Positions 36,516 through 61,736 of a stretch of 64,000 bases of DNA are shown here, in pieces (the stretch's first letter is position 1; each line of letters opens with the position of its first letter). The position numbers and the translations under genes are program-made. This DNA comes from Brachybacterium kimchii (GTDB lineage: Bacteria > Actinomycetota > Actinomycetes > Actinomycetales > Dermabacteraceae), in the NCBI RefSeq assembly GCF_023373525.1, contig NZ_CP097218.1, forward strand, positions 3,596,001-3,660,000, read 5' to 3'. Under the pieces are notes generated by a model that did no database searches, was not told where the DNA came from, and saw only the letters and a list, made by a program, of their open reading frames with translations.

Positions 36516-37904
36516 TCAGAGACCGCTCGCCAGCTGCTCCCAAGTCTCCTCGAGGCCGCGCGCGATCCGGCGGTCGCGAGCCGAGGACTCACGCAGCCAC
36601 GCGAGAGACGTCGGCCCCATGGCGAGGAGCTGCGAGTAGTTCAGGGCCAGCGGGTTCATGCCGAACAGCACGCCGGTCTTGAGCAGCGTGCCCGACGTCG
36701 CGAGGGAGTGGCCCATCAGCAGCATGGAGCGCAACTTGAGCGTCTCGCGCTTGCGCTGCGCCGGGTCGACTCCTCGGGCGAAGCCGTCGAGCAGCCAGTA
36801 GGCGTGGATGATCATCTCGACAGTGCCGGGGACGACGCCCATCGAGAAGCAGTGCCGCAGGTCGTAGCCGTGCGTGTACATGAACCGCGCGACGTCGGTC
36901 CAGGGCACCTTCACCCCGGACGGGCCGAGCGCGAAGGGCGACGCGACGGTGCCGAGCTGGAGCAGGGAGAACAGGGGAGCGGGCAATCCCGCGGGTGTGT
37001 ACACGTCCGAGAGCAGATGTCGGATCTGCATCAGGAGCGCGGAGATCAGATCGACCGGGACGCTGCCGGTGGCCACCTGCACGACCTTCCCCGCCTTGTC
37101 GACGTACGTGCCCGTGCCGTGCATGATGTCCGCGACGCCGCAGAGGAAACCGAGCAGGGGATCATGCCCGAAGCTCTGCAGTCGGTGCGTCGCGGGCCGC
37201 ATCCCGTCCACCAGCCCTCCGGTGGCAGCGTTCGTCGCCGCGTCGTACGGGACCTTCGCGGTGGCCTCGAAGCGGCGCAGGAACCGTGCATGGATCGACG
37301 CGGCCCGTTGCTTGTCCTGGAGCCAGCCGGTGAGCGGTGAGCCAGTCTGTCCCCGGCCCAGAAAGTGGGTATCGCGCGGGATCCGCACGAGCACGATGTC
37401 CAGGAGGGTGGCGATCGCTCCCGCGGCGAGGACGACGCCCCAGTCGCTGCTGCGCCAGGAGACGTCCCCGTGCTCGCGGGAGAAGGCTTCCAGGGAGGAA
37501 GCGATCCGGGAATCCGGGAGGACCTGCTGCAGAGGGTCTCGGGAGAGGTCGATGCCGAGACGTTCGAGGTGCGCTTCGGCCCGTCGGGAGAGCTGCTCGA
37601 CATCCGTCTCACGGATCGTCTCCGGCACCGGGTAGCGCGGGACGGACGGCTCGGTGAAGTCGGGGCCGGTGGGCAGGCGAGTTCGCCGCACGCCCCGTGC
37701 CTGGATCCCGAGGGCCGCGAGCCGTGCGCGCACGGCGTCCATCTCCGAGGACGTCTCGCGCAGCGAGCGCGCCACGCTCTCCTCCCGGAGGAGGACGCCC
37801 TCGAGATCGACGTCGATCTGATCGAACAGCCCACGCAACCGGCCGAGCGTCACGTCCTGGTAGGCGACCGCGGTGGACGAGTGGGAGAGGGGGCGGCGCG
37901 TCAT
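36516..37904 (-). CDS. Unknown 462-aa protein of the TerB/Mrr module
   Basis: I recognise no family. Residues about 20-60 look coiled (LRGLFDQIDVDLEGVLL and VARSLRETSSEMDAVRARL). A hydrophobic stretch GVVLAAGAIATLLDIVLV lies near 160-180. The middle and C-terminal half hold clustered His/Asp motifs, CGVADIMHGTGTYVD, QIRHLLSDVYTPAG and YTHGYDLRHC, which could bind metal, and several short hydrophobic helices. The start ATG overlaps the TerB-like stop by ATGA, so the two products are made together. Context with TerB-like, Mrr and helicase genes suggests a defence role; a metal-dependent membrane hydrolase is speculative. Confidence 0.7.
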   Translation of the reverse strand: MTRRPLSHSSTAVAYQDVTLGRLRGLFDQIDVDLEGVLLREESVARSLRETSSEMDAVRARLAALGIQARGVRRTRLPTGPDFTEPSVPRYPVPETIRETDVEQLSRRAEAHLERLGIDLSRDPLQQVLPDSRIASSLEAFSREHGDVSWRSSDWGVVLAAGAIATLLDIVLVRIPRDTHFLGRGQTGSPLTGWLQDKQRAASIHARFLRRFEATAKVPYDAATNAATGGLVDGMRPATHRLQSFGHDPLLGFLCGVADIMHGTGTYVDKAGKVVQVATGSVPVDLISALLMQIRHLLSDVYTPAGLPAPLFSLLQLGTVASPFALGPSGVKVPWTDVARFMYTHGYDLRHCFSMGVVPGTVEMIIHAYWLLDGFARGVDPAQRKRETLKLRSMLLMGHSLATSGTLLKTGVLFGMNPLALNYSQLLAMGPTSLAWLRESSARDRRIARGLEETWEQLASGL

Positions 37905-39115
37905 GCGCCGGCCGCCTGCTCCTCGACGGCCGTCTTGCTGGCCTGGAGGTCAGCGAGCGCCATTTGGAACGCCTCGAGGTCGCTGCGGAGGTCGGCAAGG
38001 TTCTGCTCGTTGGCCGTGGTGCGCGCGAGCTGCTGTTCCATCCGACGGGCGAGGGCGCCGATGTCGTCGGTCAGGTCGGCGATCGCTCGCTGGTGCTGAC
38101 CGATCACCTGCTGCATGAGATGTTCGCGACGGGTGTCCCGGCTGCGTTCGTTCGTGCCGAGCACGTATCGGGTGCCCTGGTGGACGAGCACGCCGAGGAT
38201 CACGACGGTGCCGATCCCCGTCATCATCGAACTCAGCCCCAGGACGCCGCCGAACCCGAGTGCTGCCAGGCCCGACGTGATCCCGGCTGCTCCGAGTCCG
38301 GTCACGCTGCCGAAGAGGGAGATAGCCGCGATCGGCGTGCCGAAGGCGGCGGCCTTCGCGGCGATGTCCTTCGTCGCCGTCTCGAACTGGCTGGTGGTGA
38401 TGCGGCCGGCCAGGAACTCGGATTCCTTCTCGACGAGACGCTCGATGGACGCCACCAGGTGCGGACCCCGCTCATCGAAGACCCTCGTGGCGACCTCGTC
38501 GATCACCGCGCGCTCCATGTCGCTGATGTCTCCGTCGGAGAGCGCCAGACTCACCATCTGGTGGACGACAGCGGTGGCGACGGCCTCACGATGCTCTTCG
38601 GCGATGTCGTCGAGGAAGGCTCCCGGTGCGTGCCCGGCGTCGAGGGCGTCGTCGCGAGGCGAGGTGCCGACGGGCGTGTGCTGGGCGGCGGCGATGAGCC
38701 CGCGGAGCTCGGTGCGTGCCTCGGGGTCCAGATCCATCGTGGTCAGCAACAGGTACAGCGCAGAGATCTCACTGGGATGCAGCGCGCCGTCGGCCTGTGC
38801 GAGGGCCACCAGTTCCCGACAGAGGCTCAGCTTCACGTCGGCAGACAGTTCCGACGGCGTGATCTCCGCTCGAAGTGCACGATCCCGGGAGAGCGGAAGC
38901 CTCTTCAATGCGTCGGAGGCGGTGGATTGGGCGCTGCCGGCCGCGGTCTTCACGTGAGCGCTCGTCGTGCCGGCCGCCTCGACCAGCCGTGAGCGCGCTG
39001 CGCGGGTGGTCGTCGCGAGGCGCGACTGCGCTGCCGCACCCGCGTCGACGGCACGTCGTCGCAGCTTCTCCGTGGACCGGATCGCCCTGGTCGGCGTCTT
39101 CTCGATGTCGTTCAT
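37901..39115 (-). CDS. TerB-like membrane protein with C-terminal coiled coil
   Basis: A 404-aa protein. Two TerB-like units are visible: LVALAQADGALHPSEISALYLLL at about 105-130 and MVSLALSDGDISDMERAVIDEV at about 190-212, each with the DG-x-x-xxE acidic metal-like loop. A Gly/Ala-rich hydrophobic region (about 262-325, with GVLGLSSMMTGIGTVVILGVL) likely forms membrane helices, and the last 70 residues are a coiled coil. TerB proteins occur in stress and phage-resistance systems. It overlaps the unknown 462-aa gene by ATGA. Confidence 0.75.
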   Translation of the reverse strand: MNDIEKTPTRAIRSTEKLRRRAVDAGAAAQSRLATTTRAARSRLVEAAGTTSAHVKTAAGSAQSTASDALKRLPLSRDRALRAEITPSELSADVKLSLCRELVALAQADGALHPSEISALYLLLTTMDLDPEARTELRGLIAAAQHTPVGTSPRDDALDAGHAPGAFLDDIAEEHREAVATAVVHQMVSLALSDGDISDMERAVIDEVATRVFDERGPHLVASIERLVEKESEFLAGRITTSQFETATKDIAAKAAAFGTPIAAISLFGSVTGLGAAGITSGLAALGFGGVLGLSSMMTGIGTVVILGVLVHQGTRYVLGTNERSRDTRREHLMQQVIGQHQRAIADLTDDIGALARRMEQQLARTTANEQNLADLRSDLEAFQMALADLQASKTAVEEQAAGA

Positions 39116-39197
39116 GGCTCCCCTTGTTCCCCTGGGGAAAGGATAGTGAGGGAGGGGGACATCCAGGCGCGGTCCTGGCGCCGACCTTGAAGAGGAG

Positions 39198-40250
39198 TCA
39201 GGAGTCCTTGAGCATCCAGACTCGCCGCAGAGGAACGCGCTCCGTGATGCTCTCGGGAAGCTTCTCGTAGTTGCGGAAGAATGCCTCGACGATGTCTGAC
39301 GAGTTCCAGACCTTCACCCGGAATCGCTGGTGCTTCACCACGTCGCGCGCAGGCTTGGACAAGCCGGCCCATGTAGCGAGCAAGCCATAGTCCGCGCCAT
39401 GAGTGTGGACCAGACCGTTGAGCTGCGACACCACTTCTGAGCCGATCTGCGGCGTTTTCACCTGAACGATCAGTTTCGGGGACTCGAGCCCGAGCGGGCC
39501 GCGCCCCGCGGTGATGTCGATGCCGCCATCTGCACCGGGCGGTGCCTCGTCGGCTTCGAAGCCTTCGGCTCGCAGGAGCTCGGCCACGAGATGGGCGAAG
39601 GAGTGCCCGGAGAACTCCTCGGCGATCCGCGACGTGATCTGATCGTGCGCGATGACCTCGATATCGGGCTCGGACTCGGGATCGTCGACGACCTCCGCCT
39701 GCCCGATGTTCGAGCGCTCGCTCGGCGGGATCGGGGTAGGTGAGGTGAGACCAATTGAGCCCACGTCCTCGCCCGTCCTGAGCACGTGCTCAAGGCGCGC
39801 GGCAGCGTTGTTGCGGCTCGGAGAGAAGATTGTCAGCGCACTGCCCAGGGTATAGAGCAGGTCCTGCTTCATCGCGGATCGCGGCACCTGGCGCTGCCAG
39901 TCGACGCGCACCACGTGCTGGTGGTCCGGCTCGTTGCCCGCGATGTACTCGTACGACGAGGTCACTCGTCCCAGAGCTATCTCGCGCGTGGTCTTCATGG
40001 GCATCGCCATCAGGTCACCGACGGAGATGCGCCCGCGCAACGCCCAGAGCTGGGATACAGAATTGGTGCGGGCCTTGGAAGAATCCTGCCCGTACGCCTC
40101 ATCGACAAACACTTGGATGTCTTCGCGCGATGTGGCGCCGGTCAGGTCAGGGACCTCGCGCCATCCGCCACCGGAGCACCCATTCTCAAGTGCCCACTCA
40201 TCTCGCTCCCCATAGCGCCCTGACCGGATCACCCATGCTGTGCTGACCAT
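39198..40250 (-). CDS. Mrr-type restriction nuclease with N-terminal reader-like domain
   Basis: A 350-aa protein. The N-terminal part (about 1-160) with VGDLMAMPMKTTREIALGRV and YEYI resembles PUA/EVE-like modified-base reader domains. The C-terminal Mrr catalytic domain has the PD-(D/E)xK core: D241/D245 in GADGGIDITAGRG and Q263-V-K265 in LIVQVKT, after FAHLVAELLRAEGFEAD. Such type IV enzymes cut modified foreign DNA. It lies 82 bases before the TerB-like gene and 56 bases after the helicase on the same strand. Confidence 0.85.
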   Translation of the reverse strand: MVSTAWVIRSGRYGERDEWALENGCSGGGWREVPDLTGATSREDIQVFVDEAYGQDSSKARTNSVSQLWALRGRISVGDLMAMPMKTTREIALGRVTSSYEYIAGNEPDHQHVVRVDWQRQVPRSAMKQDLLYTLGSALTIFSPSRNNAAARLEHVLRTGEDVGSIGLTSPTPIPPSERSNIGQAEVVDDPESEPDIEVIAHDQITSRIAEEFSGHSFAHLVAELLRAEGFEADEAPPGADGGIDITAGRGPLGLESPKLIVQVKTPQIGSEVVSQLNGLVHTHGADYGLLATWAGLSKPARDVVKHQRFRVKVWNSSDIVEAFFRNYEKLPESITERVPLRRVWMLKDS

Positions 40251-40306: not shown

Positions 40307-42046
40307 TCACCCCGCCCCGTCCGCCAGGCTCCCCGCCGGCAGCCAGTCCGCCCCGAGCAGCTGTGCGACGTCGGTCAACTGTTCGGTGTCCCCGCCCACG
40401 GTGTCCGACGCGGCGGCGATGCGCTCCACCATCACCTTGCTGACCTGCTCCTCGACGGTGTCCTGCGCATAGGCGATGTGCCAGGGCGAGACCTGGTGGT
40501 CGCGGTGGGTGCGGCCAGTGACCTGCCGGCCGGCGATGCCCGAGAAGCGGGCCTGGTGGAAGACACCGACGCGCGGCTCCGTGCTGGCCTGCCGACCATC
40601 GGGCAGGGTTTCGCCGGCGTGGAGGCTGATCGAGGCGACCGAGGTGAACACGCAGACCTTCGCCTCGCCCCTCTGGAACTTCAGTCGCTCGGCCTCGACG
40701 TCGAAACGGTCCCGTCCGAAGATCGTCGCGACCTCCAGTCCAGCATCCTGCAGACGCTCGGTGATCGGGTCGGCCGCGGTGCCCACGAACTCGACCGAGC
40801 ATGCCACCTGCCGCTCCGCCTCGACCTGCTGGGCGATCCAGGCGACCGTCGAGTCGACGCGGATCAGCCCGGCCTTCTGGCGGAACCTCAGCAGGGCCGC
40901 GCGGCCCTTCGCGGTGTTGCGTCCGCGCCGGGCCAGGTCCATCTCGCGGCAGAACTCGCCCCATTCGGCTTCGTACGCCGCGCGCTCGGCCTGCGTGAGC
41001 GCCACCGGCATTCCCGAGATCGGCACAGGTCCCCAGGGCGCGGCGCGGTGCAGCATGGCGGGCGGCTGCGCGTCCTCGAGCCAGGTGCGCACCCGCGCAA
41101 GATCCTCGGCCCGGCGTGCGGGGTCCGTCGTCCAGGTGGCGCCGTAGCGCCCTCGCTCCAGGCCGATCCCGTGGCGCTCGAGGGCATCGGCGAAGGACGC
41201 GTCGATCTTCGAAGCCGAGGTCCACTCCTTCATCGACTCGCCGTGCACCTGCGCGTAGGCAGGAGCGAGATAGGGGAGCTCGAGGGGAGTGTGGCCGGGC
41301 GTCGCGGTCGTCGCGATGACGAACGGCACCGCATCGTGTGACTTCGTGTGCCCGGAGATCTTCGCCCAGAGCCTCCAGCGCTTCGTCGTAGTGCGGCGCA
41401 GGGCGTGCGCCTCGTCCGCGATGATCACGTCCCACTCGTACTCCGCGACCTTCTCCAGACGGTCCCAGGTGATCACAACCCACTCCAGGCCGCTGTCGCC
41501 GAGCGCAGTGATGGTGCGGCACCAGTGGCCGATCGTGATCGCCGCCGGACGGTCCGCCACCACGAGCACGCGCTGAGCGTCGCGCAGAGACCCCACCGCG
41601 CTCGCGCCGAGCACCGCGGAGATCGTCTTGCCGACGCCCGGCTCGTCGGCCAGCAGGAACTGCCGGCCACCGGCCGCGGCGCGCTCGGCGATCGCGTCTG
41701 CCGCCTCGTACTGGTTCTGCCGGGGCTCGAAGTCCTCGGAGGGTTCGGGGATCGGCGCGAGGGAGTCGGGGTTCAGCGTGTTCTCGAGGAACCGGCCCAG
41801 GGTGTGGGGGCCGGGGGCGAAGTGCTCGAGATGCTGGGGGAGGGTGCGGCCGACGTGCAGGTGCATGCGGACGGCGGGGTGCCACGTGGCGCCCTCGATA
41901 TGGGTGCCGTAGGGGACGTCGAGGACCCAGAGGCGTTCGCCGGGGCCGACGAAGGGCAGGTCCTTCAGTGCGTGGCGCGAGCCGCTCGAGGTGCGACGGC
42001 GCGAGGACTTGCGATGGCGAGTGGTGGAGCGACGGGGAGCAAGCAC
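40307..42046 (-). CDS. SNF2-like (SF2) DNA helicase/translocase
   Basis: A 579-aa protein with both RecA-like lobes: Q-x-N-Q-Y segment (PRQNQYEAADAIA), Walker A DEPGVGKT at 134-141, DEAH box at 211-214, VIATTATPGHTPLE, and a C-terminal GIAGRQVTGRTHRDHQ with the arginine-finger motif. It is smaller than typical chromatin-type SNF2 proteins and resembles restriction- or phage-associated translocases. GTG start at 42046 with only a weak ribosome site. Its last residues, LLGADWLPAG, recur in a fragment at 35.95 kb. Confidence 0.85.
   Translation of the reverse strand: MLAPRRSTTRHRKSSRRRTSSGSRHALKDLPFVGPGERLWVLDVPYGTHIEGATWHPAVRMHLHVGRTLPQHLEHFAPGPHTLGRFLENTLNPDSLAPIPEPSEDFEPRQNQYEAADAIAERAAAGGRQFLLADEPGVGKTISAVLGASAVGSLRDAQRVLVVADRPAAITIGHWCRTITALGDSGLEWVVITWDRLEKVAEYEWDVIIADEAHALRRTTTKRWRLWAKISGHTKSHDAVPFVIATTATPGHTPLELPYLAPAYAQVHGESMKEWTSASKIDASFADALERHGIGLERGRYGATWTTDPARRAEDLARVRTWLEDAQPPAMLHRAAPWGPVPISGMPVALTQAERAAYEAEWGEFCREMDLARRGRNTAKGRAALLRFRQKAGLIRVDSTVAWIAQQVEAERQVACSVEFVGTAADPITERLQDAGLEVATIFGRDRFDVEAERLKFQRGEAKVCVFTSVASISLHAGETLPDGRQASTEPRVGVFHQARFSGIAGRQVTGRTHRDHQVSPWHIAYAQDTVEEQVSKVMVERIAAASDTVGGDTEQLTDVAQLLGADWLPAGSLADGAG
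40331..40361. repeat. Right copy of the 31-bp direct repeat, inside the helicase 3' end
   Basis: Begins CCCCGCCGGCAGCCAGTCCG and lies within the last codons of the intact helicase gene, exactly 4,380 bases from its copy at 35951. Confidence 0.6.
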
Positions 42047-42909: not shown

Positions 42910-44112
42910 TCAGGTGTTATCTATCGGTGCAATGTCCCCCTCGACGACAATGGTTTGCGTCACTGGGGTGTTTATGGTGCGGGAGAGGATGTTCACTGCT
43001 TCTAACTGGATGGTCAGCTGTTGACCGGTGCCCCTCAGTGCCGAGACGAGGGCGTCTTCGCGCACCAGGACGGCGTGGGGCGCATCCTGGCCGACTGCGG
43101 GATCGGTGATGACGAGGGTCCCCGACCCATCAACGCAGTCCAGGCCATCGCCCGACCACCGTGCGTTCAGCAGCTCGAGTGCATCGGCAGTGGGTGGAGC
43201 CACGTTTCCGTCGCTCCGGGTGCTCACCATTTCTCCGCCGTCAGAGGGGAGCACGAAGCTGTCCGCGAAGCGGAGTCTTCTACTGCGCGCGGGAGACTGT
43301 GTCTCGAAAGCCGCTGAGCGCGGAGACAAGGTGGCGCCGTCGACGCGCAAGACCTCGTGCCGGGTTCGGCCTGGCAGGGGGCGGCCGTCATCTGTGCTCT
43401 CGATGGACCAGCGAGAGCGCCCGAGCCGTGGAGTGGGTCGCGACGATGCCGCACGGGGTGGGGTGAGAAACCGAAAACGACCATCGATGACGATCCAAGT
43501 GACACCATCTGGCGCGGTCACACGAAGATCGGCGACCGAGCCTGAGGCGGGCATGGAGCGAAGTGCCCACCAGGTGCCCGAGTGCACTGTGTCGTCAGCA
43601 TGGAGTAGCAGGTCCATTGGTGCCGTTGGGTCGACGTAGAAGTCCCATGCGCCGCCGGGGTGTTCCAGGAGATCGCCCGCCGGGTTCGCGGCAGTGCCAG
43701 CTTTGATGGTGCCTTCCCGCATCGAGAACATCCGTGCGCCGGCGCGGTGCTCGGCGTACTGCCGTGCGAGCCATCGACCGAACACTAGCGAACCGATGTG
43801 GTCATGTTGGGAATCTGTTTGACCGCCTTTCGCAAGGCATTGGTGGTATCCCCCCGCGATACCGAGCGAGGACAGGATGCGCGATTCGAAGACCATTGCC
43901 TTGTAAGGCCCTCGTCCGTCTGCGAACATTCCTCGATCCTCATCGCCGATGAGCGGTCGCAGTCGCAGTGAGCGGCGTCGTTTTAGGGGCGGTAACGATT
44001 GGCTGAGGAATTCGTGCATGGGTTGCTCGGATTGAATTACGGTGTGGATCGCGGCTAGTGATCGATAGGACTGCGGACGGGGGGGTGCAATACAGTGCGC
44101 GCGAGCAGACAC
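42910..44112 (-). pseudogene. C-terminal part of the STAND protein, out of frame with the main gene
   Basis: A 400-codon frame (GTG at 44112, or ATG at 44019) that overlaps the end of the STAND gene by 172 bases. The last 50 codons of the STAND frame look non-coding, while this frame reads as plausible protein across the overlap, joining cleanly if one base of the seven-C run at 44079-44085 is skipped. Motifs include FESRILSSLGIAGGYHQCLAKGG, a beta-rich C-terminal half and no recognised domain. Either the 3' part of one 1,279-aa gene or a separate gene of unknown role. Confidence 0.55.
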
Positions 44113-46726
44113 TGCGCATGGTCCGTGCAGCGGCGGATTCCGGCCACCGGGCGGCTACCCCTGCTGCTGCGGTGAATAGTGCGTCGTGCGGGTGATCGTC
44201 GTCGACGTCCCGGAGTCGGTGCAGCACGGGCTCGAGCGTCGAAGGGTCACGGTGGAGTATCTCGACTAGGCTGCAGACGGCGAGTTCGGGCAATCCCGTG
44301 CCGGATGCGGCGCACCCCATCCAGGCGAGCAGTTCAACGGCTGATTCTGAACCATTTTCGGTGAGGGACTTCCAGCGGTTTGAAACATACCAACCCAGCA
44401 GCGATTCGAGGTTCTTCTGATCGAACTGTGACGCCTCGCTGAGACTCTCCAGGGCTTGTGGCCAGAAACGAGCGCGCCGGCGCAAGGGGGTCCCTCGCAA
44501 GAACTGGTTCAGCCAGCGAGCGCCTAGCATCTTGCGGTGCGGCAAATCGAGCACCGACCTCACGATGATCTCACTCATCTCGCCGCCGCTGTCGAGCAGT
44601 CGTTCTGCGAGCTGTCGTGTCCTGGGGGTGATCTCACCGTCGGCGCGAGAACCGAGAGACAGTGCAAACGCCACATCGCTTTCCTCAGCCGAAATCGACG
44701 TTAGCTTGAGATCGGGTAGTTCATGGGCGGGGTTCTCTTTGGGGGCGAGTTCGGCAGCCAAGCTCGACAAGGCGAACCTGCGGTCTTCATCACGCGCCGA
44801 GAGAAGGGCGTCGAGCCTGCCCGCCTGGATCGCATGGCGCATCTGCAACATGTCGTTCATCGCGTCCCAGCGGAAGCGCACGGTGTCCCGCGCGGGCGAG
44901 TCCAACTCCAGGAAACCGTCGTCTGCGAGCTGCTGGACGATGCGGTCCACACGGTCTGAATGGAGTCGCGTCTCGGCTGACAGCTCGATGATGCTCCGTT
45001 CGCCGCCGACCTCCGCAAGATTGTCGATCAGTCGCCGGATCGTTGCCACGGGCACGTCGAGAACTGCAGATGCCTCCGCTGCGAGCAGTTCCACCCAAGC
45101 GTCGAACAGGGTTGTGCGGCTGAGCAGGCGATCGGATGCCCCCGGGTCGGCCGTGAGCACGAGGACCGCTACGGAAGCCAGCAGCGGATTGGTGAGCGCA
45201 GCGTGCCACCTCGTCCCGGGGCGAGCTTGGAGGGCGAGTTCCACGGATCGAGCCATGGTCACCCGGTCAGGCGACTTGTGGACCAGTTCAGGTAGCGAGT
45301 CGTCCGCCATTTCCATACGATCTCTGCGACTCGAGAGGATGAGCCGCAGATTCGGGAAGCGCTGGATCATCTCCTGGAGATGGCGCAGCGCCGCTGCGGG
45401 GTCTTCAATAGACGATTCGTTCAGCCCGTCGATGATGATAAAGAGCGGATGATTACTGCGGCGACCGATGGCATCGAGCATTGCTGCTACGGCTGCGGTT
45501 TCGGCGTTCTCATTGTCGAGTCCATTACGCCATGGCTGGGAAAGTATCGGTGCGTCCGGTCGAGTGAAATCGCGTCCCCGCAGCAACAGCACCGGCACAC
45601 CTGCAGCTAATGCACGACGGGTTAGCATCGCGAGCTGAAAGCTCTTACCGGTGCCCCATCGCCCTGTTATTAGGAGCGTGCGAGACAGCACTGCGTCGAT
45701 CATGCAGTTGATCAACTCCACATCGGCGAGCAAGGCGATCAATGATCTCGCGCACCGTTTGACTTCATCCGCGTATAACCAATTCTGGTAGTCACCAGAA
45801 GAGATCTCTGACGCGGCGGCTGTTGCACCCTCAAGAATATCGATCGCGTCATTCAGTGTAGACTGCACATGGTTTTGCAGAGTGCGAACTCGGAGGGCCT
45901 CATCCCGAGATGCGACGACAGGTTGGGATGTCAAATGCGAGGCCTCGTGCGTGAGGGTGCGCACGCTCGCCGCCAATTTTTCGCAGAGCGGTTGATCCGA
46001 GTGCAGGCACCGGGCTCGCTGTTCGAGCTCGTTGAGCATCACTCCTATCTCCTTGCCCTCCACATAGCGAGGCGCATTAGAGGCTGCGATAAACCGGTCG
46101 AGGAATGTTGCGGTCTGCTGGATCGGGAACTCGATCCGTGGTGCGCTATCGCTGCCAAGGCGGGAAAGTATCTGCGATGCCTGCCACTTAGAGTGCCGGT
46201 CCACTGCTGCACGCTGCAGTGGGGATTTCGCCGAGATGACAGCGAAATACTCTGGGCGCCGCTCTCGGAGTATTCGGTCGAGATCGTCGGCGAAAAGGAC
46301 GGTTACCGTGACCTTGCGCTGCTTAGCTGTTGCCGCAGCATGCATCGACCGGATTGCGTCAGTCGCTTTCGAATCATTCCCGGTCTTGCGTCCGGCTGGC
46401 GGACCGGTACCACTCGTTCTGCGTGCTGTGGAACACCAGACGTACCGGTTCACGGTGACGTGTTCGGGGCTATCCAGAAATGTCGCAAAAGAGGACTTGA
46501 TGCTTCTGGTCTCACTCGCGAAGTCGTTGTATGCTTTGCATTGTACCGCGAGATACCCGGACTTAGTCTGCACCTTTGCTTCAATGCCGCCGTCGTGACT
46601 TGGGGCCATCAATTCTGGTAGGTCAGCAGGGCATTCGTCGAGATCCGTGGCGATATCTCGGATGATTCCGCCGCAAACCCACTCGAGCTCGGCTGGTTTG
46701 AGTCCGTGTGCAATTCCCTCGTGCAT
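43940..46726 (-). CDS. Mrr-STAND NTPase (Avs-like), frameshifted at its 3' end
   Basis: A 928-aa frame from the ATG at 46726, which has GAGGGG just upstream. Residues about 1-150 are a PD-(D/E)xK nuclease of the Mrr type: D45 in SHDGGIEAK and Q62-C-K64 in LAVQCKAY. A STAND/NACHT-like ATPase follows: Walker A GRWGTGKS at 355-362, Walker B LFIIIDGLNE at 428-437 and LRLILSSRRD at 460-469, then winged-helix and helical regions. Proteins with this order include antiviral Avs sensors that cut DNA on sensing phage proteins. The last 50 codons look spurious because of the seven-C run. Lower G+C than neighbours suggests transfer. Confidence 0.8.
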   Translation of the reverse strand: MHEGIAHGLKPAELEWVCGGIIRDIATDLDECPADLPELMAPSHDGGIEAKVQTKSGYLAVQCKAYNDFASETRSIKSSFATFLDSPEHVTVNRYVWCSTARRTSGTGPPAGRKTGNDSKATDAIRSMHAAATAKQRKVTVTVLFADDLDRILRERRPEYFAVISAKSPLQRAAVDRHSKWQASQILSRLGSDSAPRIEFPIQQTATFLDRFIAASNAPRYVEGKEIGVMLNELEQRARCLHSDQPLCEKLAASVRTLTHEASHLTSQPVVASRDEALRVRTLQNHVQSTLNDAIDILEGATAAASEISSGDYQNWLYADEVKRCARSLIALLADVELINCMIDAVLSRTLLITGRWGTGKSFQLAMLTRRALAAGVPVLLLRGRDFTRPDAPILSQPWRNGLDNENAETAAVAAMLDAIGRRSNHPLFIIIDGLNESSIEDPAAALRHLQEMIQRFPNLRLILSSRRDRMEMADDSLPELVHKSPDRVTMARSVELALQARPGTRWHAALTNPLLASVAVLVLTADPGASDRLLSRTTLFDAWVELLAAEASAVLDVPVATIRRLIDNLAEVGGERSIIELSAETRLHSDRVDRIVQQLADDGFLELDSPARDTVRFRWDAMNDMLQMRHAIQAGRLDALLSARDEDRRFALSSLAAELAPKENPAHELPDLKLTSISAEESDVAFALSLGSRADGEITPRTRQLAERLLDSGGEMSEIIVRSVLDLPHRKMLGARWLNQFLRGTPLRRRARFWPQALESLSEASQFDQKNLESLLGWYVSNRWKSLTENGSESAVELLAWMGCAASGTGLPELAVCSLVEILHRDPSTLEPVLHRLRDVDDDHPHDALFTAAAGVAARWPESAAARTMRSVCSRALYCTPPSAVLSITSRDPHRNSIRATHARIPQPIVTAPKTTPLTATATAHRR

Positions 46727-46976
46727 GATCCCCCTCGTGACGGCTCGCACCTATCCTAGCCGAGGCGAGCCTTGGGTGTTGCTCAGGTGGAATGCAAATC
46801 CTTGGTCGAACGTTATGAAAGTGAGGGATCGCCGCCCCGATGCCTTCGGTTGCCGATCGCCCGGCATCAGCCCCTCTTCGATCAACAGGTGTGGCTAAGA
46901 CTCCTATAACCTGTTGAAGGGTAACCACGACCCTGACCCGGGGTCATCCCGAAATCCGTGCGTCGTGGCGGCCTGT

Positions 46977-59368: not shown

Positions 59369-59702
59369 GAGACAGATCCTCCCGACGCCGTCCACGGGCT
59401 CTCCGACCCTTCGGACGCCTTCCAGGAATACGAGGAGTCGGGCGCCATGTCCGGTCCTGTCCTCGACCGGTTGACTGTTGATCTGGAGAGGGCCTCGATC
59501 ACCTCGCGGACCGGGGGAAGCCCTGGGTGCCCTGGAGGAGTTCGTCGGGGATCTGGACGACCCGGAGAAGGGCGATTCCGTGACGGATGGGGCCTGGATT
59601 GACCTGGTCAACAGGAGACGATGCATGCGAATGCCGCCTGGCAGAGCCGACGTGTCCGACCTGTGGTCGGAGCGGTGGTGCGGGTGCTGCTTCGGCCTCT
59701 AG
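59369..59702 (+). pseudogene. Decayed C-terminal extension of the sialidase
   Basis: Directly after the sialidase stop, in the same frame, the sequence reads SDAFQEYEESGAMSGPVLDR and LTVDLERA; after a frame change it continues ALEEFVGDLDDPEKGDSVTDG and AWIDLVNRRR. These lines match the helical FIVAR-like repeats often found at the end of large actinobacterial glycosidases. A nonsense codon and a frameshift separate it from the enzyme, so it is a remnant or an error. Confidence 0.5.
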
Positions 59703-61429
59703 CTGTCGTGTTCGAGGAGGTGCCTGATGCGGCACCTCAACGATGGGTCGGCCACGTAAATGTAGGTCCCCCGCATCCCCCGCGTCAGCAGCACCCGGTA
59801 CACATTGGTGATGTAGCGGAGCAGATCCTCGTCGGTGGTGGTCTGACCACGCGTCCTGTTGTCGATCTTTCCATTTCTGTCGAAGTAGTTCTTGCGGTCG
59901 GCGACGAGCCTGCCGGTCTCGGGGTCGATGCGCAGGTCGCCGCCGATGATGACGCCGGCGTAGTTGAGGTCGTATCCCTGGACGGTGTGGATCGAGCCGA
60001 CCTCCTCGAGCGAGGTCTTCGAGGCGATCCAGTCGACGTCGGACCTGTTCCAGTCCAGGGCGACGCCGTCGAGCTCGATGTCGTGGAGTCCAGTCTTGCC
60101 CTTGCTCCGCCACTTCCAGGCATAGCCAGCGACGAGTCGTGCGAGCCCGAACTGAGCGTCACGTTCGCGGATCCTCTGGTGCATCGCACCGAGGTCGTCG
60201 AACAGCTCGAACTCGTAGTCGCCGAGATCCGGGATCTTCCAGGGCGGGTCATCGGAGATGAGTGCACGCGCGAACTCGAGGTACTCCTTGCCGCCCTTCA
60301 CCCGCATCTGGGTGTCCAAGGGGTACAGGCGCTTCTGCTCCCTGGTCTCTGCAAGCACGCGCTCGAAGACCTCGGGCTCGATGTCCATCGGTCGCACGCT
60401 CTGGGCGGTGTCGAGCAGGAGGATGGTGTGGCGGGAGCGCTTGCGGATCCAGTCGAGTTGATTGATCGAGAGGTCGTCCTCACCGAAGAGTCGGCGGGTG
60501 ATCTCGCCATAGCGCGCGGTGAGCGTGCCATGAGCCTGGGCGCCGCGCTGGGTGAGGCGGTGGGCCTCGTCGACCACGATGACGTCGAAGTCCTCCTCGG
60601 CCTCGGCCACCTCGTACGGCGTGAGCACCTGTGCATCGCTCAGCGCGGGCACCTTCTTGAACACCTTGCTGATGGACTTGCGCAGGGACTTCTGCGGGAT
60701 GACGAGGCCGATGCGCAGGTCGCTGAAGAGCCCGCGGTTCCCCTCGACGAAGAGGTCGGAGAACATCGAGTCGCCCTCGACCTCGTCGGTCGGGTCGAAG
60801 ACGGCGAGGTCGCGCATGAGCTTCATGAGGTAGATGCCGACGATCGTCTTGCCAGTCCCGGGATCGCCCTGGATCGCCGCGATGGTGCGCACATCGGGGT
60901 GCTGGAGGTCCTCGACCAGTCCCTCCATGATGTCCAGGACGGCGATGCCCTGTTCCGTGTTGAGCGCCTTGAACGGGGAGAGCTTGAACAGGTCGGAGTT
61001 CTCGATCTCGGGGATCGAGCGCTCGAAGTATCCGCGACCGCGGAGCTCCTCGAAGATCTCCTTGAAGGTGTCGTTGTACTCGCTGCGCTGGAAGTAGTCC
61101 TGGTTGGTGATGCCCTCGTTGCGGTTCAGCACCTCGTACTTGCCGTCACCGCCCAGCAGGCGGATGAGGAGGGATTCGAGGTCCAGGCAGGCGGATCCGT
61201 TGAAGCGCTCATCGAAGACGATGCGCACCTCCTTGAGGTGCTGCTTCTGCTCGGACTTGAGGTGCTGGCGCATACGACGGTCTGCACTGCCCGTCTCGCC
61301 GACGTAGATGTCGTGACCGTCCTCGATGAGGTAGACGACCGGCCAGTTGGAGAAGCGGGGGAGTCGTCCTCGCGTCTCCTCGACGGAGTCGGGGGTGAAG
61401 CGGAGCTCTTCGATCTCAAAGCCGGTCAT
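59699..61429 (-). CDS. GIY-YIG nuclease fused to a DUF2075/Schlafen-type helicase
   Basis: A 576-aa protein. Residues about 28-95 are a GIY-YIG nuclease: VVYLIEDGHDIYVGETGSADR with Tyr33, Tyr42, Gly44 and Arg residues, and a later Glu in LDLESLLIRLL. A superfamily 1-like helicase follows: Walker A GDPGTGKT at 188-195, Walker B VVDEAH at 285-290, VHTVQGYDLNYAGVIIG as motif V and the DUF2075 end VYRVLLTRGMRGTYIYV. This fusion is common in defence islands. It starts 14 bases inside the end of the MazG-like gene, so the two are coupled. Target is unknown. Confidence 0.87.
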   Translation of the reverse strand: MTGFEIEELRFTPDSVEETRGRLPRFSNWPVVYLIEDGHDIYVGETGSADRRMRQHLKSEQKQHLKEVRIVFDERFNGSACLDLESLLIRLLGGDGKYEVLNRNEGITNQDYFQRSEYNDTFKEIFEELRGRGYFERSIPEIENSDLFKLSPFKALNTEQGIAVLDIMEGLVEDLQHPDVRTIAAIQGDPGTGKTIVGIYLMKLMRDLAVFDPTDEVEGDSMFSDLFVEGNRGLFSDLRIGLVIPQKSLRKSISKVFKKVPALSDAQVLTPYEVAEAEEDFDVIVVDEAHRLTQRGAQAHGTLTARYGEITRRLFGEDDLSINQLDWIRKRSRHTILLLDTAQSVRPMDIEPEVFERVLAETREQKRLYPLDTQMRVKGGKEYLEFARALISDDPPWKIPDLGDYEFELFDDLGAMHQRIRERDAQFGLARLVAGYAWKWRSKGKTGLHDIELDGVALDWNRSDVDWIASKTSLEEVGSIHTVQGYDLNYAGVIIGGDLRIDPETGRLVADRKNYFDRNGKIDNRTRGQTTTDEDLLRYITNVYRVLLTRGMRGTYIYVADPSLRCRIRHLLEHDS

Positions 61430-61736
61430 ACTTCGTGCTCCGTCCCTTGGCCTTCTCGACCGGGTACTTCCGGCCGGTGCGCTCGAGCTTGTCGAGGACG
61501 ATCTGCTCAGGGTCCAGGTCGAGCCTGTCCGCGAGGAGCAGCGCGTAGGTGAGGACGTCGGCGAGCTCGCCGGTGACCTCGTCGCGATCGGCATCGCCGT
61601 CCCACTGGTAGCACTCGAGGAGCTCGGCGGCCTCGATCGAGATCGACTTGGCGAGGTTCTCGGGGGAGTGGAACTGTCCCCAGTCGCGCTCGGCCATGAA
61701 GGTTCTCAGGGCCTCGATCGTGCGCTCTGTCGACAT
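61416..61736 (-). CDS. MazG-like nucleotide pyrophosphohydrolase
   Basis: A 106-aa all-helical protein with the family EEXXE-type magnesium motif: ISIEAAELLECYQW and ELADVLTYALLLADRL. Members hydrolyse (d)NTPs to monophosphates. It is the first gene of a pair with the GIY-YIG/DUF2075 helicase. A role in nucleotide depletion during defence is inference. The ribosome site is weak (AGG, 9 bases upstream). Confidence 0.88.
   Translation of the reverse strand: MSTERTIEALRTFMAERDWGQFHSPENLAKSISIEAAELLECYQWDGDADRDEVTGELADVLTYALLLADRLDLDPEQIVLDKLERTGRKYPVEKAKGRSTKYDRL

Follow-up and report, generated by a model that had tools for sequence, protein, structure and literature searches.

Three genes lie on the minus strand between positions 36516 and 40250 of the window, by which we mean the whole 64,000-nucleotide stretch of the Brachybacterium kimchii contig that was analysed. 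In the order of transcription, a gene for an Mrr-type nuclease is followed 82 bp on by bnzA and then by bnzB, and the latter two overlap by ATGA at 37901-37904. The open reading frames (ORFs) thus confirm the arrangement described in an earlier note on this DNA, namely three same-strand genes, two of them joined by ATGA, beside a translocase and a STAND nuclease: both a helicase (40307-42046) and Avs2-like STAND ORFs (42910-46750) are present. GC at the third codon position was 0.80 in the Mrr gene, 0.85 in bnzA and 0.90 in bnzB. The features are:

36516 to 37904, minus strand: bnzB, 462 aa, ATG start (ORF list).
36981 to 37187, minus strand: BnzB residues 240-308, including H240, H247, D259, H296, D300 and HxxxDxxTxxGLP (alignments A1 and A3).
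37901 to 39115, minus strand: bnzA, 404 aa, ATG start (ORF list).
37907 to 38149, minus strand: predicted C-terminal long helix/coiled coil, BnzA residues 323-403 (AlphaFold2, block pLDDT ~61-92).
38159 to 38365, minus strand: Gly/Ala-rich hydrophobic putative hairpin with the GLGAAGITSGLAALG motif, BnzA residues 251-319 (hydropathy).
38489 to 38812, minus strand: TerB domain, BnzA residues 102-209 (Pfam TerB, E=8.7e-14).
39198 to 40250, minus strand: Mrr-type nuclease gene (PDC-S02), 350 aa, ATG start (ORF list).
39285 to 39620, minus strand: Mrr_cat domain, nuclease residues 211-322 (Pfam, E=5.4e-24), with DGGID ... VQVK, which we take to be the motif as in PD-(D/E)xK nucleases.
40307 to 42046, minus strand: SNF2/ResIII-type helicase, 579 aa (Pfam ResIII, E=6.8e-9).

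The 462-aa protein matched the PADLOC profile BnzB (PDLC03834; E=4.1e-81) with its residues 6-459 over profile positions 9-501 of 504. The 404-aa protein matched BnzA (PDLC03833; E=2.5e-66) at profile positions 156-458 of 544, that is, without the first ~155 and the last ~85 positions. The locus therefore has the features of Bunzi: a BnzA-family protein, a BnzB-family protein, adjacency on one strand and a TerB domain in BnzA. Judged by these profile matches, bnzA and bnzB almost certainly constitute the Bunzi anti-phage system, so that the pair is a published system and not the undescribed one proposed earlier. PMC10952713 places Bunzi beside TerB in its listing and attributes the system to Millman et al. 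2022, and the name also appears in studies of E. coli, Salmonella and Aeromonas. An excerpt of a 2026 review (PMC12926258) gives the mechanism as unknown, and no mechanism was found in the excerpts of the literature searched. A match of the 462-aa protein to a housekeeping enzyme, named in the earlier note as evidence against its proposal, was not found in the libraries searched, which gave no Pfam family at E≤1 and no NCBIfam family for the BnzB of the window.

The 350-aa protein was a PDC-S02 match (PADLOC; E=3.3e-127, positions 2-343 of 346). The position of its gene is consistent with a three-gene system in which the Mrr nuclease, as the killing part, acts together with the TerB-membrane protein and BnzB, given the shared strand, the 82-bp gap, the ATGA overlap and the fact that nuclease and pair both belong to defence families. 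However, PDC-S02 relatives were found in none of the 115 other loci that carry BnzB as a whole or fragmentary gene (phmmer, E≤1e-3; flanks of up to 10 kb, often shorter), and the eight other genomes in which PDC-S02 was matched over nearly its full length (394 genomes scanned) had no BnzB. Likewise, PDC-S02 did not stand next to BnzAB in any of the four nearest regions (three genomes, 5.9 to 19.9 kb), and the 13 plasmid records that carry PDC-S02 were all absent from the BnzB plasmid matches listed (of 490). A joint system of three genes is highly improbable on these counts, and the nuclease does not appear to be its third component. We conclude that the Mrr gene is very probably an unrelated single-gene candidate nuclease that lies upstream in the same direction by chance.

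The helicase has a copy in one same-genus genome that is 94% identical over 552 aa. Helicase, Mrr gene and BnzAB were considered as one island unit, and this was rejected because the 19.9-kb same-genus stretch carries the helicase without Mrr or BnzAB. A defence hotspot at the same-genus helicase was rejected as well: the PADLOC hits mad3, mad8 and E1-E2 were, on reading, an ABC transporter, a flavoprotein and an MFS-type transporter.

With near-copies at 90% removed, the viral and genome contigs gave 67 non-redundant loci, and in 64 of these BnzB had a hairpin-type partner upstream, which supports the earlier view of the coupled genes as a defence-type pair. Separate occurrence of the genes, named in the earlier note as evidence against its proposal, was thus true of the nuclease and untrue of the pair. 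Among all 115 loci, an upstream partner was detected by motif or phmmer in 95. The hairpin motif occurred in 86/402 nearby same-strand ORFs, the partners that define the motif included, versus 0/1878 distant ones. Of the 20 loci without a detected upstream partner, six had a hairpin protein of another type up- or downstream (L008, L011, L012, L016, L017, L086). BnzB and hairpin were fused in a single chain in L057 (PDC-M09A match) and L059 (by eye), L060 was a TerB-BnzB chain, and L136 had a hairpin ORF missed by the search pattern. The remaining ten were broken, at contig ends or unexplained (L015, L035, L036, L058, L062, L085, L120, L124, L138, L140).

We aligned 61 of the 64 non-redundant partners (L013, L030 and L031 were left out) with the BnzA of the window and three fused chains (A4, 65 rows). 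The glycines of the hairpin were near-invariant across these 65 partners, and likewise across 23 partners. The hairpin shape of residues 251-319 is a prediction from the sequence; the AlphaFold2 model of BnzA was poor (mean pLDDT 65) and did not resolve the region (~35-52). The BnzA profile was matched at E≤0.001 by 55/65 partners, many of them weakly; in TerB-less partners the match, wherever its extent was given, was confined to the hairpin region. Pfam domains found in A4 were TerB (5/65), ADP_ribosyl_GH (2/65) and Sel1 (1/65); the figure of 5/65 is no population frequency of TerB, because the alignment that supplied the genome scan patterns contained many TerB-less gut bacteria.

On a BnzB tree of 41 hand-picked rows, the TerB label changed at least four times on the starred branches, three times without the long-branch row L060 and twice if L012 was also unlabelled. 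The labels of L034, L012 and L060 in these counts come from PADLOC coverage (L012), a small custom HMM and reading, not from row-by-row Pfam searches; the custom TerB HMM detected L034 (E=1.2e-8) and L011, a near-copy of L012 (E=3e-5), and did not find L060. TerB rows were more clustered on the tree than shuffled labels, and free exchange of TerB is therefore not established. Among 72,556 plasmid records, 490 also held BnzB relatives, and 435 of these 490 were predicted to be conjugative; the partner was TerB-less in both intact enterobacterial plasmid BnzB loci examined (L010, L013). We considered whether TerB-less loci have a separate TerB gene in place of the fused domain: on an IncHI2 plasmid, terZ, terB and terC lay ~8 to 12 kb from a hairpin-BnzB pair. 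When the IncHI2 TerB was used as a phmmer query against the 115 loci it gave no match, but it missed the fused TerB domains too and was thus too weak a probe to bear on this idea.

To judge from these sequences, the constant core of Bunzi may be the membrane hairpin protein with its putative metal-site partner, and not TerB, which is possibly a new finding. Bunzi could then be one branch of a wider membrane-acting family with a fixed core of BnzB and a glycine-zipper hairpin, exchangeable sensors and an optional TerB, a reading to which we give slightly less than an even chance. The sensors would be TerB (in this genome and some others), ADP-ribosylglycohydrolase, Sel1 repeats or the product of an upstream trypsin-like protease gene; we put the odds below even because the TerB label has to change just two to four times on the tree, according to which rows are counted.

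BnzB was mostly helical in its AlphaFold2 model (mean pLDDT 78). It had two hydrophobic stretches by Kyte-Doolittle hydropathy, just one of them strong (residues 152-177), and is probably membrane-associated. Alignment A1 comprised 11 rows with 20-29% identity to the BnzB of the window, and D154, D169, H240, H247, D259, H296, D300, D348 and E363 were invariant in all of them. We also aligned 67 of 89 full-length BnzB of viral and genome contigs with that of the window (A3); all 68 rows matched the PADLOC BnzB profile. H240, H247, H296, D300 and E363 were invariant in A3 (68/68), D259 was kept in 66 rows and D348 in 67. H262 of HGTGT was kept in only 4/68 rows, and in HGYDLRH the first histidine (H345) was kept in 3/68 and the last (H351) in 61/68. 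The motifs HGTGT, RHLLSD and HGYDLRH, which had been said to look like a metal site, are thus all present, with H296, D300, D348 and H351 largely kept but H262 and H345 variable. The resemblance to a metal site is favoured by the conserved His/Asp/Glu set, which could bind metal, whereas the motifs first pointed out are conserved in part.

Foldseek returned no PDB or BFVD match to the BnzB model at E≤0.001, and VIA-align no match at Z≥8 (best Z 5.3, of little meaning for helical models); we do not take this as evidence of a new fold. Nothing meaningful came from PDB sequence searches with BnzB, BnzA, the L034 BnzA, the BnzB profile and the Mrr protein. Single-sequence searches found no close relative of BnzB in genome or viral contigs and no relative of BnzA in viral contigs, and a DNA search of E. 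coli genomes found no bnzAB pair.

We considered two other explanations of how the pair works. According to one, BnzB is a chaperone or antitoxin-like holder that keeps a pore-forming hairpin protein inactive, and the His/Asp set is structural. The hairpin is indeed the part that the partner types have in common, and its region resembles LeoBC, presumably of the dynamin-type defence family Eleos, in 18/65 partners; this resemblance may be mere composition plus coiled coil, and nine His/Asp/Glu residues kept in 11/11 rows at 20-29% identity are more than one would expect of a holder. We regard this explanation as unlikely.

According to the other, BnzB is a toxic membrane metal hydrolase, similar to YdjM/DUF457 (PF04307), that acts on lipids and is restrained by the BnzA hairpin until infection. 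Our YdjM set covered 16 of 17 loci (L050 was omitted, being under the Pfam cut-off); its rows were mostly of one genus, and two were halves of one protein. The motif HxxxDxx[TA]xxG[ILV]P was found in 60/68 BnzB rows, 14/16 YdjM rows and 0/7207 other ORFs. The best profile alignment of BnzB with YdjM sat precisely on this motif, and by eye a further HR...H pattern was seen upstream of it. That alignment was weak (hhalign, probability 4.6%, P 0.0088), and the match stayed below significance in every setting: other settings gave 0.6% (P 0.093), global alignment P 0.87 and alignment with A1 P 0.46, with reversed decoys at P 0.24 and 0.61. Furthermore, no Pfam YdjM was found in the BnzB of the window (E≤1) or in five relatives (E≤5), and a motif so short may be convergent. 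BnzB shares HxxxDxxTxxG[ILV]P with YdjM/DUF457 but has roughly double the length of the YdjM stretches examined, and its profile match is not significant. We regard this explanation, too, as unlikely.

Our own model, a sensor-gated membrane effector with a metal-site membrane partner, is tentative, and we rate its chances as clearly below even. BnzA would combine an infection sensor (TerB) with a glycine-rich hairpin that inserts into the membrane and with a coiled coil. Its regular partner BnzB, helical and membrane-associated, would probably be either a gate held by metal or a metal-dependent hydrolase. Upon infection, the sensor part would free the hairpin, the assembly of BnzA and BnzB would work at the inner membrane, and cell growth would halt ahead of phage production. 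What the sequences show is family membership by profile, a conserved gene pairing, the hairpin sequence, N-terminal parts that vary, fusions and conserved residues; that the hairpin enters the membrane, that metal is bound, that hydrolysis takes place, what the trigger is and that growth stops are inferred.

Taken together, a Bunzi pair next to an independent Mrr nuclease is the best overall explanation of the locus, with a probability of roughly 0.75; the membrane-acting model is our preferred but tentative view of how the pair works. Beyond TerB, the hydrophobic hairpin and the nine conserved acidic and histidine residues of BnzB offer targets for work on the Bunzi mechanism. Detection rules based on full-length BnzA may overlook TerB-less relatives. 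If sensors are indeed interchangeable while the membrane core stays fixed, domain swaps would separate the trigger from the effector and so make the mechanism testable.

Among known systems, PDC-S02, a PADLOC candidate single-gene system of the Mrr type, has in the nuclease of the window an ordinary, near-full-length member, with no difference seen. Shango (TerB, ATPase and helicase) is likewise a phage defence operon with a TerB-like protein (PMC10250203), but the pair described here is without an ATPase and the neighbouring helicase occurs without BnzAB in a relative; PADLOC found no Shango protein at E≤1 among the four window proteins scanned. The PADLOC candidate PDC-M09A is matched by the hairpin partners of some BnzB relatives (up to E=4e-70), whereas the BnzA of the window matches the BnzA profile and not PDC-M09A. 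With Bunzi itself, the locus shares adjacent, overlapping genes and a BnzA composed of TerB plus a hydrophobic hairpin; it differs in that its BnzA matches part of the profile and in that an Ala-rich N-terminal helix precedes the TerB domain.

The earlier note proposed an undescribed system of three genes. All three genes are present where it placed them, on one strand:

Genes of the proposed system and their PADLOC profile matches
36516-37904, minus: bnzB, 462 aa; BnzB, E 4.1e-81, nearly full length
37901-39115, minus: bnzA, 404 aa; BnzA, E 2.5e-66, profile positions 156-458 of 544
39198-40250, minus: PDC-S02 nuclease, 350 aa; PDC-S02, E 3.3e-127, nearly full length

The nuclease gene lies 82 bp ahead of bnzA, which overlaps bnzB by ATGA, and all three look coding (third-position GC 0.80-0.90). 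By Pfam, the 404-aa protein carries TerB and the 350-aa protein Mrr_cat; the 462-aa protein had no match. Judged by their profile matches, the 462-aa and 404-aa proteins are BnzB and BnzA, the two proteins of the known system Bunzi, and the pair is thus not new.

The nuclease had been proposed as the third member, yet in a phmmer search it had no match among the 7327 ORFs of 115 other loci with a BnzB gene or fragment, whose flanks span at most 10 kb and less on small contigs. Among 394 genomes of the class, BnzB occurred in two (the window's own and one with the gene's last third only) and PDC-S02-like matches (E <= 1e-3) in 133, most of the matches listed covering the profile partially. Matches were near full length in nine genomes including the window's own; the score exceeded 380 bits in four genomes (G000, G248, G104 and G367) and was 200-228 bits in five (G028, G273, G305, G178 and G350). 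BnzB was found in none of the eight other genomes with a near-full-length match, and the four nearest fetched BnzB-relative regions (three genomes) contained no PDC-S02 gene. At the sequence level there is no sign that the Mrr/PDC-S02 nuclease is a Bunzi component. In a same-genus genome, the upstream helicase is 94% identical over 552 aa (L195:13005-14771) and the arabinofuranosidase region is also kept (91% DNA identity to the window); the 19.9 kb fetched there contain no Mrr and no BnzAB, with transporter and metabolic genes instead.

Elsewhere in the window, an Avs2-like STAND gene (42910-46750, minus; GC 0.60-0.63, under the window's 0.69) is split over two frames. A 936-aa ORF covers the first third of an Avs2 profile, and an overlapping 400-aa ORF has a weak match to the C-terminal end of that profile; the gene looks frameshifted or broken. 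A Schlafen-type helicase is encoded at 59699-61594 (minus), preceded by a weak match to a GIY-YIG nuclease. The 97-bp tRNA-Ser called by ARAGORN within this gene, on the opposite strand, is probably false.

The BnzB profile was matched by all 68 rows of our larger BnzB alignment. An upstream partner, recognised by motif or BnzA similarity, was present in 95 of 115 BnzB loci, sometimes with one small gene between; with near-copies removed and viral and genome contigs only, it was upstream of BnzB in 64/67. The part common to the partners is not TerB; it is a Gly/Ala-rich hydrophobic hairpin with the motif GLSAAGITSGLA...GGGM.AG and, after it, a probable coiled coil. This motif, itself defined on such partners, occurred in 86 of 402 same-strand ORFs near BnzB versus 0 of 1878 farther ORFs. 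Pfam assigned ADP-ribosylglycohydrolase to two of 65 partners, Sel1 repeats to one and TerB to five, a proportion (5/65) that means little because sampling was skewed to TerB-less gut bacteria.

ADP-ribosylglycohydrolase-like part fused ahead of a BnzA-type hairpin, beside BnzB
L027:6256-7635
L129:7834-9852

In four loci of the enterobacterial branch (L010, L013, L018, L032), a gene annotated as a trypsin-like protease lies upstream of the hairpin gene. On a tree of 41 hand-picked BnzB proteins, the TerB label changes at least four times on well-supported branches, at least three times without L060 (a very long branch) and at least twice with L012 also unlabelled; TerB rows cluster beyond chance. 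TerB therefore appears to be an optional front end, with more than one gain or loss in the family.

Hairpin gene and BnzB are separated by 200-400 bp in 18 of 64 loci, and a small coiled-coil-like gene (~85-130 aa) lies between them in L019, L021, L023, L028, L099, L127 and others. Of 65 partners, 18 have a hairpin and coiled-coil region similar to LeoBC (e.g. L056:294-1367; E 4.7e-7 at best), a likeness that may reflect composition only.

In an 11-row BnzB alignment, some rows being near-copies, D154, D169, H240, H247, D259, H296, D300, D348 and E363 are kept throughout. In the 68-row alignment, H240, H247, H296, D300 and E363 are invariant, D348 is kept in 67 rows, and D169 and D259 are each kept in 66. 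Position 154 is D in 62 rows and E in the remaining six. This conserved His/Asp/Glu set makes the metal site suspected earlier plausible, although two of the histidines then named vary (H262, 4/68; H345, 3/68). The AlphaFold2 model of BnzB is mostly helical (mean pLDDT 78, core parts >90) and had no clear match among solved and viral structures.

The most likely mechanism goes beyond the architecture, which is what the data show; how infection is sensed, entry into the membrane, the metal and its chemistry, and the fate of the cell are inferred. BnzA would detect infection via TerB or another front end, and its hairpin would enter the inner membrane. BnzB, bound to BnzA, would hydrolyse a membrane substrate by its metal site or gate the hairpin, and the cell would be disabled ahead of phage release. 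Contact between BnzB and the hairpin protein is suggested by their fusion in one chain in two proteins (L057, by profile; L059, by reading). The scheme takes two main forms: BnzB may be a toxic hydrolase, or the hairpin may be a pore with BnzB as its holder. We give the whole mechanism little more than one chance in three.

BnzB was found in none of 23 other same-genus genomes examined, some incomplete, and two relatives (L196, L197) were read as lying near integrase genes; for these reasons the BnzA-BnzB pair is probably mobile. BnzB relatives occurred in 490 of 72,556 plasmid records (E <= 1e-3), 3 of 50,697 phages (E <= 1e-5), 18 loci in viral contigs, 78 loci in genome contigs and, counting the window's own, 7 of 396 genomes of the phylum. 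On the IncHI2 plasmid pE-33-mcr-9 (L200:14412-27770), a TerB-less hairpin and BnzB lie ~8-12 kb from terZ, terB and terC; for the IncHI2 plasmid R478, an excerpt of PMC12054061 states that phage inhibition was mapped to the ter cluster (Whelan et al. 1995). On two contigs of one genome (L198, L199), BnzA-BnzB pairs were read amid TrpF-like and TrpC-like tryptophan biosynthesis genes.

A literature search by the names Bunzi, BnzA and BnzB found no paper on their mechanism. The discovery paper of Bunzi is reportedly that of Millman et al. from 2022. In excerpts of later work, a table assigns the TerB domain to both Shango and Bunzi and enters the function as 'N/A' (PMC10952713, citing Millman et al. 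2022); Bunzi is listed among unknown-mechanism systems in a 2026 review (PMC12926258), is named in E. coli (PMC10121019) and Aeromonas (PMC11206119) studies, and is frequently plasmid-associated in Salmonella (PMC11305592). The open-licence literature, searched with 'hydrophobic' as the sole hairpin-type term, yielded no description of TerB as optional in the wider BnzB-hairpin family.

The motif HxxxDxx[TA]xxG[ILV]P is common to BnzB (60/68 rows) and YdjM/DUF457 (14/16), versus 0 of 7207 other ORFs. The best BnzB-YdjM profile alignment falls on this stretch (P 0.0088; decoy 0.24 at the same setting); other settings gave P 0.093 (local; decoy 0.61), 0.87 (global) and 0.46 (11-row alignment). 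As evidence of homology the comparison was not significant in any setting, and we treat the likeness as a lead. Part of the wider BnzB-hairpin family is already captured by PADLOC as BnzA and the candidate system PDC-M09A. By profile comparison the window locus is a further example of Bunzi, differing in that its BnzA matches just part of the profile (positions 156-458 of 544).
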